This document shows, piece by piece, positions 2,289 through 23,338 of a stretch of DNA of 45,142 nucleotides. The position numbers and the translations under genes are program-made. Within the stretch, counting starts at the first letter, position 1. Every line of letters starts with the position of its first letter. The notes under the pieces were generated by a model. It had not been told where the DNA came from. It saw only the letters and a list, made by a program, of their open reading frames with translations, and did no database searches. Origin of the DNA: Sphingomonadales bacterium BRH_c3 (lineage in GTDB: Bacteria > Pseudomonadota > Alphaproteobacteria > Sphingomonadales > Sphingomonadaceae); contig LOET01000023.1 of NCBI GenBank assembly GCA_001515985.1, forward strand, positions 1 to 45,142. The letters run 5' to 3'.

Positions 2289-2831
2289 TCAGTCGTCGCC
2301 ATCCCAGTCATCATCGGCCAGATCCACCGGCGAAGCGGGCTGAATGGTCGATACAGCATGCTTGTAGGCCAATTGCACGAAACCGTCGCGCTCAAGCAGC
2401 ACACAGAACAGATCATAGGCGGCAATCCGCCCTTGCAGCATCACGCCGTTGACCAGGAACATGGTTACCTGGACTTCCGCTTCGCTGACGCGTGAAAGAA
2501 AAACATCCTGCAACAACCGTTGCCGGGCATTGCCGTGTTGGCTGGCGAACTGCTCAGCGTCGATCGGTTGCCCAGGCATGATGGTCGAGATCGCATGCTT
2601 GTAAACCAGCTGCGACTGGCCATCGCGCCGCAAAAGCAGCGAGAAATTGTCAAACCAGGTGACAATACCCTGCAGTTTCACGCCCTTGACCAGGAACACC
2701 GTGACCGGTGACTTGTTCTTTCGCAGCAAGTTGAGAAATGCGTCTTGAAGCTTGGCTTGCTTGCCGGAATTATCGGGTTTGGCCGGAGTTTCCGACGGGG
2801 CACGTGCGGAGAGAATTCGCCCACTAGACAT
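2289..2831 (-). CDS. hfq: Tandem-domain RNA chaperone Hfq (two Sm domains in one polypeptide)
   Basis: Domain 1 [28 protein letters not shown]...YKHAISTI and domain 2 [28 protein letters not shown]...YKHAVSTI. Start chosen at MSSGRIL (2831), preceded by AGGAG at about 7 nt. The ORF track extends upstream to 2903. Confidence 0.95.
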
Positions 2832-3009
2832 TGATATACTCCTGTTATTGGCGGCTGCTTTTTGCAGTCCGCGATCTGGCGCCAGATCGGATTGCTCCGG
2901 CATGGCGCCGTGTCAGTCATGCACAATGACGGTTTTCAGCGCCTTGGGCAATGGAGTTTATCGCGTAAAATCCGCGCGGCGGCGGTTGATGCGCCAAACG
3001 GGACTGCGC

Positions 3010-10284: not shown

Positions 10285-11433
10285 GTGAACAATAGCTCCA
10301 CTCCCCCTTCCTTTGCGGCCATCGTGGTCGCGGCCGGCAAAGGCCTGCGCGCGGGTGGCGATTTGCCCAAGCAGTTTGCCAGGTGGCGCGGCAAGCCCTT
10401 GTTGCGCCACTCGGTAGAGGCAATGCTGGATAGTGGGGCCAGCGAAGTGGTAGTCGTGATCGCCGACGACGCCGAGGAACTCGCCCGGCTCGCTCTGGCC
10501 GGGCTCGATAGCTGCCGCCTCGTCACCGGCGGCGCCACACGCCAGGAATCGGTGCGTAGCGGGCTAGAGGCGCTCGCCTCTCAAACTCCGGAGCGGGTGC
10601 TCATCCATGATGCCGCGCGTCCCGGCCTTTCCCGCACCGTGATCGATCGCCTGCTCGCTGCGCTTGGCCAGCATGCCGGGGCGATCCCGGTTCTGCCGGT
10701 AGTCGACAGCCTGGCGATTGCAGCTGGCAATATGATGAGCGGTGCGGCCGCGCGCGAGCAATTGCGGCGCGTGCAGACCCCGCAGGCATTCAGATTTGAC
10801 GCCATCCTGGCCGCGCATCGCGCGTGGCAGGGCGAACCTAACGCTGGGGATGATGCACAGGTGCTGATCGCAGCGGGCGGCAATGTCGCACTTGTCGAAG
10901 GCGACGAACTGCTTAGGAAAGTAACCTTTGCGGAGGACTTGATGGCTGCACTTCCCCCAATGCGGATTGGTCAGGGATACGATGTCCACCGGCTCGTTGA
11001 AGGTGAGGAACTCTGGCTCTGCGGGGTACATGTCCCGCACAGTCGCGGTCTGGCCGGGCATTCCGATGCCGATGTTGCACTTCACGCCGTTGTCGACGCC
11101 CTGCTGGGCGCGATCGGAGATGGCGACATCGGCACCCATTTTCCCCCTTCGGACCCGCAATGGGAGGGTTCGCCCTCCCCCCTGTTTGTCGAACATGCGG
11201 TGACTCTGGTCAATGCCGCCGGGTACCGGATTTCCAACCTTGATGTGACGCTCATCTGCGAGGAACCGCGAATTGGCCCGTATCGGGATGCGATGCGCGA
11301 GAAACTGGCCGCGCTCTTGTGCGTTGATCTGACACAGGTCAGCGTCAAGGCGACGACAACCGAGCGGCTTGGCTTTACTGGTCGCGGAGAAGGAATTGCG
11401 GCACAGGCAGTGGCCTGCCTTGAGCGTTACTAG
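10285..11433 (+). CDS. ispDF: bifunctional IspD/IspF (MEP cytidylyltransferase / MECDP synthase)
   Basis: Isp[22 protein letters not shown]. Isp[56 protein letters not shown]. Confidence 0.96.
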
Positions 11434-20242: not shown

Positions 20243-20320
20243 ATAGTTGGATACGGCAGCCTGGCGGCACATTCCATCGCTGGCCAAATCACATTAGCGT
20301 GTTAAAATTGATATTGCGGT

Positions 20321-20334
20321 CACATTATAATGTG
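20321..20334. promoter_or_regulatory. perfect 14-bp palindrome CACATTATAATGTG overlapping a putative -10 (TATAAT), candidate operator
   Basis: Reverse complement is identical to itself; contains TATAAT at 20326-20331; ends 13 nt before the ATG at 20348. Confidence 0.6.
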
Positions 20335-20347
20335 CTACAATTCGCGT

Positions 20348-21595
20348 ATGAGCACTACGATCATTGAACAAGTCCGCGATCTCGTAAACAGAGGCAAACT
20401 TACTCGTGCCGGCCTGGCCCGTGCTGCGGGACTGCATGCCAATACGCTGCGCGACTGCACAGAGGCCAGCTGGAATCCAACTGCTGAGACGCTTGCCAAG
20501 CTGGAAAACTTCCTGCTGCAAAGCGACGACCGCCCCGCCCTCGTTTCAATCGAGGAAATCATTGACGAGGCGCGCAATGGCCGCATGTATATCCTGGTCG
20601 ATGATGAGGATCGCGAGAACGAAGGTGATTTGATCATCCCTGCACAAATGGCCACGCCCAATGCGATAAACTTCATGGCGACGCATGGGCGCGGGCTGAT
20701 CTGCCTGGCGCTCGCTCGCAAGCGCGTGGAGCAGCTCGGGCTTGAACCGATGAGCCGCAACAACAAGGAAAGCATGCAGACCGCTTTCACGATCTCGATC
20801 GAGGCGAAAGAAGGCGTAACCACAGGAATCTCGGCGGCTGATCGCGCGCGCACCGTTTCGGTAGCGATCGATTCCAGCAAGGGACCGGAGGATATAGTGA
20901 CGCCCGGCCACGTATTCCCGCTTGCCGCGCGCGATGGTGGCGTGCTGGTGCGCGCAGGCCACACCGAAGCGGCGGTCGATATCTCGCGCCTTGCAGGGCT
21001 CAATCCTTCCGGCGTGATCTGCGAGATCATGAACGAAGACGGTTCGATGGCACGGCTCGACGATCTGATCGGCTTTGCCCGCAAGCACGACCTCAAGATC
21101 GGCACTATCCGTGATCTGATCGAATACCGCCGCCGTAACGATCACCTGGTCGAGCGGGTCGACGAACGCAGCTTTGAATCCGATTACGGAGGACAATGGC
21201 GCCTCCTCACTTATCGCAACAAGGTTGACGGCAGCGAGGCCTATGTCCTGCAGAAGGGGCATGTCGTACCGGGAGAACCCACCCTAACCCGTGTTCATCC
21301 CATCTCGGTTCTCGACGATGTGCTGGGCCAACCCGGCCCGCGCAAGCGCACGCTCCAGCGCGCGATGCTGGCGGTGGGCGAGCATGGCTCGGGCGTGATC
21401 GTGATCCTGCGCGATCGCTCGGCTACCGGCACTTACAGCGATAGCGACGAAGAGCGCAATGTGGGGATCGGTTCGCAGATACTGGCCGATCTCAATATTC
21501 ACGAAATGATCCTGCTCACCAACTCGCAGCCCAATGTTGTGGCGATCGAAGGCTTTGGCCTCAACATCGCCAGCCTCATGCCAATCCCGGAGTAA
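20348..21595 (+). CDS. ribB: RibB-type 3,4-dihydroxy-2-butanone 4-phosphate synthase with N-terminal HTH and degenerate GTP cyclohydrolase II-like C-terminus
   Basis: RibB core [17 protein letters not shown] and [31 protein letters not shown]-terminal [40 protein letters not shown]; the C-terminal part lacks GCHII cysteines. Confidence 0.93.
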
Positions 21596-21599
21596 ACCG

Positions 21600-23338
<1,739 letters not shown>

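Follow-up and report, generated by a model that had tools for sequence, protein, structure and literature searches.

Can an enzyme of riboflavin biosynthesis carry the repressor of its own gene? The question is raised by a locus on a 45,142-nucleotide contig of Sphingomonadales bacterium BRH_c3, analysed over its whole length and hereafter called the window. Here, a helix-turn-helix (HTH) domain is fused to the N-terminus of a RibB core that is followed by a GTP cyclohydrolase II-like domain (RibX), and a palindrome precedes the start codon. The first-pass annotation had proposed that the fused HTH binds this palindrome and represses its own gene. Based on relatives gathered from the genus, the family, the order and the class, we consider it very likely that the HTH binds an operator in its own promoter and that the enzyme thereby represses its own ribBX-ribH operon. 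The proposal gains support from the co-occurrence of operator and HTH, from the near-uniqueness of the site in each genome and from the geometry of the promoter. The relevant features are collected in Table 1.

Table 1. Positions in the window of the HTH-ribBX gene, its domains, the downstream gene and the predicted regulatory elements.
Feature	Position	Strand	Remarks
HTH-ribBX gene	20348..21595	+	415 aa; ATG at 20348; predicted transcriptional start at or adjoining the ATG (leaderless)
N-terminal HTH domain	20348..20539	+	residues 1-64
RibB domain	20552..21127	+	Pfam DHBP_synthase, residues 69-260, E 1e-84
RibX, GTP cyclohydrolase II-like domain, three zinc cysteines absent	21155..21592	+	
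ribH (lumazine synthase)	21600..22022	+	starts 4 nt past the HTH-ribBX stop codon
Main operator (predicted), TCACATTATAATGTGC	20320..20335	+	11 of 12 positions of TCACAT-N4-ATGTGA; fills the -35/-10 spacer; encloses palindrome 20321-20334
Auxiliary operator (predicted), TCACATTAGCGTGTTA	20289..20304	+	10 of 12 consensus positions; 31 bp from the main operator, centre to centre
-35-like element TTGCGG	20314..20319	+	where relatives have TTGC or TTGA
-10-like element TACAAT	20336..20341	+	position of the conserved TA

An alignment with solved RibB proteins revealed that the RibB motifs, including ICEIMNEDG, are intact in the fusion, and RibB activity is therefore expected; the standard RibB core described in the first-pass annotation is thus borne out by both the Pfam match and the motifs. 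The C-terminal domain matches GTP_cyclohydro2 of Pfam at residues 270-358 (E 5e-28). In the alignments, the RVHSECLTGD...CDCG zinc site of RibA is replaced by other residues in this domain, and the loss of all three cysteine ligands, already remarked upon in the annotation, is evident. Both the three cysteines and the GTP-loop motif are missing from the fusion and from the aligned alphaproteobacterial RibBX proteins alike, and RibX is predicted to be catalytically dead. Of 15 other genomes searched, 13 encode a separate true RibA with the CLTGD...CDCG zinc site; none was found in the window's own genome, which is 82% complete. Scans against Pfam and NCBIfam gave no kinase domain in the fusion. 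The downstream ribH is presumably co-transcribed with HTH-ribBX. The mechanical open reading frame start at 20330 was rejected as the start of the gene: it falls within the operator and differs from the conserved start.

The enzymatic part of the fusion corresponds to the known RibBX arrangement in Proteobacteria, as had been pointed out in the annotation. RibBX of Shewanella oneidensis, Aeromonas salmonicida and Bradyrhizobium likewise combines RibB with a GTP cyclohydrolase II-like domain lacking the zinc ligands; a separate true RibA is found in complete relatives. The RibBX structure of A. baumannii (6mnz) ranks third among the fold matches. In the passage of PMC10012899 that cites Brutinel 2013, the X domain fused to RibB is reported to be without cyclohydrolase activity yet to modulate RibB. 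In contrast to the fusion, no RibBX protein that we found described carries an N-terminal HTH. The genome of the window also encodes a second, stand-alone ribB on another contig (C94; L003:5492-6100, minus strand), which adjoins genes resembling an NADPH-FMN reductase and an FMN-dependent monooxygenase and possibly serves as a local flavin supply.

Upstream of HTH-ribBX, the sequence contains the perfect palindrome CACATTATAATGTG at 20321-20334, separated by 13 nt from the ATG at 20348, exactly as annotated. Taken alone, this palindrome is no rarer than chance: the window contains seven perfect 14-bp palindromes compared with 3.6 expected, and about 0.008 are expected per 100 bp. The question therefore became one of conservation.

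A site of the form TCACAT-N4-ATGTGA, matching at least 10 of its 12 specified positions, precedes 127 of the 128 HTH-bearing ribBX genes of the family. It is perfect (12/12) in 77 of them, and the single exception scores 9; among the first 41 HTH-bearing loci inspected, an operator-type site was found upstream in every case (41/41). HTH-bearing homologs without the palindrome, which the annotation had named as the observation that would speak against self-regulation, are thus confined to that one gene. We then consider 120 non-redundant promoters, filtered to less than 70% identity, in which the information content is 1.2-2.0 bits at each specified position of the operator and 0.00-0.14 in the flank upstream of the -35 box. 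Judged from this alignment, the conserved operator is a phylogenetic footprint and not leftover similarity.

When the promoters are aligned on the operator, which usually starts 28 bp before the ATG, TTGC appears at positions -6 to -3 and TA at +16 and +17, so that the operator constitutes the 16-bp spacer. The start codon commonly lies at +28, about 7 nt past the -10 box, and a Shine-Dalgarno-like tetramer is found in only 3 of 67 genes with the start codon at this position. The HTH-ribBX transcript is therefore probably leaderless. In the window, the conserved register reads TTGCGG, 16 nt, TACAAT. The promoter proposed in the first-pass annotation survives in part: TTAAAA (20302-20307) and TATAAT (20326-20331) are both present, with 18 nt between them, but the TATAAT is not the conserved -10 element. 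It lies within the palindrome, the centre of the operator is nearly free in relatives, and TTGC and TA flank the operator. A second, weaker site (at least 8/12) occurs at an offset of -34 to -30 in 48 of 127 promoters, compared with 0-4 in eight control offsets, and typically lies 31-32 bp upstream of the main operator. In one genome (G159), a flavin reductase-like gene (L228:6816-7334, plus strand) is divergent from HTH-ribBX, with the operator region between the two.

The operator accompanies the HTH domain and not the ribBX gene as such. In the same family, 22 ribBX loci lack the HTH, and not one of them carries the site within 400 nt upstream (best score 9/12), in contrast to the 127 of 128 HTH-bearing genes, and among all HTH-less ribBX loci only 1 of 91 reaches 10/12. 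A maximum-likelihood tree built from the RibBX core shows no row in which HTH and operator disagree (48/48 and 30/30). Each trait changes five times on this tree, and grouping all HTH-bearing rows in one clade is rejected (p-AU 0.026); three of the five co-changes are forced by well-supported branches, and the independent changes are too few for a significant sign test. The co-conservation of palindrome and HTH foreseen in the annotation therefore extends to their changing together on the tree.

Gene order differs between the two kinds of loci: HTH-less genomes mostly show ribE-ribBX-ribH, and most HTH-bearing loci show HTH-ribBX-ribH without ribE. We rejected relocation of the gene as the sole reason for its new promoter. 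In six HTH-bearing loci (L041, L042, L044, L122, L123 and L127), ribE is retained upstream and the operator lies between ribE and HTH-ribBX; the operator therefore goes with the HTH at equal gene order. Outside the family, no HTH-RibBX was found in 69 further ribBX loci (L045-L113, most of them from other orders) or among 387 genomes of the class.

At the genome scale, 71 genomes contain 33 exact operator sites, 31 of which lie at the HTH-ribBX promoter. An exact site occurs in 31 of 48 HTH-bearing genomes compared with 0 of 23 genomes lacking the fusion (Fisher p 5e-8). The two sites elsewhere are about what base composition is estimated to predict, and no riboflavin gene is recognisable beside them; a larger regulon was rejected on these grounds. 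A genome has essentially one such operator, located at the HTH-ribBX gene.

What kind of HTH is fused to RibBX? The annotation had called it XRE-like, and the domain may have such a fold: its AlphaFold2 model (pLDDT 81) resembles HTHs of the lambda-repressor type, the top matches including HipB, P22 c2 and restriction controller (C) proteins. These matches have probabilities of mostly 0.9-1.0 and TM values of about 0.55-0.6 but weak E values (best 0.09), and they are mostly repressors, antitoxins and controller proteins. By family score, the domain is not a clear XRE member, since it stays below the Pfam gathering cut-offs of both HTH_31 (21.7 bits versus 27) and HTH_3 (17.0 versus 23). Across 24 aligned HTHs, A24, A26, G28, LHAN 29-32, LR 34-35 and WNPT 42-45 are invariant, and the segment comprising helix 2, turn and helix 3 equals the operator in its invariance.

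Searches with a model of this HTH gave one match per HTH-bearing genome, always the fusion protein; a stand-alone HTH paralog as the binder of the operator was therefore rejected for these genomes. Stand-alone relatives of 78-94 aa occur in two other genomes (L271, G047:C18:6526-6681, and L277, G746:C88:127050-127208, both on the minus strand), with palindromes of the form CGCAT-N4-ATGCG directly before their own genes; in G047, the stand-alone gene has several such copies upstream. The 94-aa relative of G047 has GCGCAT-N4-ATGCGG before its own ATG, in the same -28 geometry as the HTH-ribBX operator, which supports the fused HTH as the operator binder. The module is also fused N-terminally to CoaBC, a flavoprotein of coenzyme A biosynthesis, in two genomes from another family of the order (L269, G461:C1:1173780-1173950, and L270, G497:C294:3616-3768, both on the minus strand); no clear palindrome is present upstream of these two genes.

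These observations bear on the alternative that a separate transcription factor binds the operator while the fused HTH has another role, e.g. in oligomerisation. E. coli has single-target regulators (PMC8249747), so that a count of one site per genome is not enough to identify the binder. Against a separate factor, the operator is present with the fused HTH and absent without it, the HTH model matches no second protein in HTH-bearing genomes, invariance is as strong in the helix 2-turn-helix 3 segment as in the site, and the gene of a stand-alone relative is preceded by an analogous palindrome. We therefore regard this alternative as unlikely.

If the fused HTH itself binds, the architecture of the enzyme suggests how. 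RibB is a homodimer in solved structures, so that the two HTHs, paired by the RibB homodimer, would sit with twofold symmetry over the palindrome TCACAT-N4-ATGTGA. An HTH bound in the spacer between -35 and -10 should block RNA polymerase, and autorepression would therefore be the most likely effect. The ribBX-ribH operon would then be repressed by its own product, with ribH co-regulated, and the weaker second site, three helical turns upstream, would probably add cooperative binding. Repression could be controlled by the concentration of the enzyme alone, by substrate occupancy or by flavin on RibX; an effector binding to RibX would give this domain a function.

Binding at the same operator could instead activate the promoter. 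The sign of regulation cannot be told from sequence alone, and proteins of the MerR family can activate from within the spacer. However, the HTH-ribBX operator covers the whole spacer and abuts both boxes, and the spacer measures 16 bp, whereas that of MerR-type promoters is typically elongated to 19-20 bp. The predominance of repressors, antitoxins and controller proteins among the fold matches also argues against self-activation, which we judge to be less probable still than a separate factor.

That the palindrome arose by chance, or is a promoter feature kept by close ancestry with no dedicated regulator, would agree with the excess of such palindromes in the window; as a complete explanation it appears already refuted and retains next to no probability, since 120 promoters whose flanks have diverged to background retain about 16 conserved bp and HTH-less relatives lack the site. 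Equally improbable is that the inverted repeat, although near the start codon, works at the RNA level, as an attenuator or a leader hairpin, because the inferred -10 box lies downstream of it, which places it outside the transcript, its half-site letters are fixed and do not covary as an RNA stem would, and the window contains no Rfam family at threshold.

In many bacteria, the FMN riboswitch (RF00050) is the usual feedback control of riboflavin genes. No match to it was found in the window or in any of 37 genomes of the same genus (0/37). It is present in 4 of 24 genomes from other families of the order; being missing from most of these too, its absence does not single out the family. The best reading of HTH-RibBX is that of a putative self-repressing biosynthetic ("trigger") enzyme in a setting where FMN riboswitches are absent. 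A further-reaching picture is possible, although we consider it less likely than not: riboflavin control throughout the family might be exerted by a pathway-sensing HTH-RibBX that grips or releases its one operator depending on whether RibB is occupied by substrate or the dead RibX domain has bound flavin, one protein thus doing the job of the FMN riboswitch. The same HTH module might then be reused with other cofactor enzymes, as its fusion to CoaBC in two relatives suggests.

Trigger enzymes, i.e. enzymes with DNA-binding domains that control genes of their pathway, are listed for E. coli in PMC8249747. BirA, NadR and PutA likewise combine a metabolic enzyme with a DNA-binding domain and have their operator at a promoter of the pathway; HTH-RibBX would differ from them in its pathway, in its combination of domains and in its apparently single target, its own operon. 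A precedent for the logic, named in the annotation, is archaeal RbkR, an HTH fused to riboflavin kinase. It likewise joins an HTH to an enzyme of the riboflavin pathway and regulates riboflavin genes, but it is archaeal and its partner is riboflavin kinase rather than DHBP synthase; its role as a regulator is cited in PMC10746257. In Wolbachia, the stand-alone XRE-type proteins wBmxR1 and wBmxR2 are positive regulators of ribA (PMC3518464). They are alphaproteobacterial XRE-like proteins at a riboflavin gene promoter, as we propose for HTH-RibBX, but they are not fused to an enzyme and regulate ribA positively. We found no description of HTH-RibBX in the literature searched.

Control of riboflavin genes in Alphaproteobacteria without the FMN riboswitch is largely unaddressed in the literature we found. 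For a family with many cultured genera, a specific protein, a 16-bp operator and a promoter geometry are now predicted. The repeated joint gain or loss of HTH domain and operator would make this family a natural case of an enzyme acquiring its own repressor.

Two genomes of the same genus, both listed as 100% complete (G006 and G334), have no match to RibB or GTP cyclohydrolase II and no exact operator site, and they probably belong to riboflavin auxotrophs. Elsewhere in the window, positions 2289-2903 (minus strand) encode an Hfq protein of 204 aa in which the Hfq domain occurs twice in tandem, and the open reading frame at 10285-11433 (plus strand) reads like an IspD-IspF fusion.
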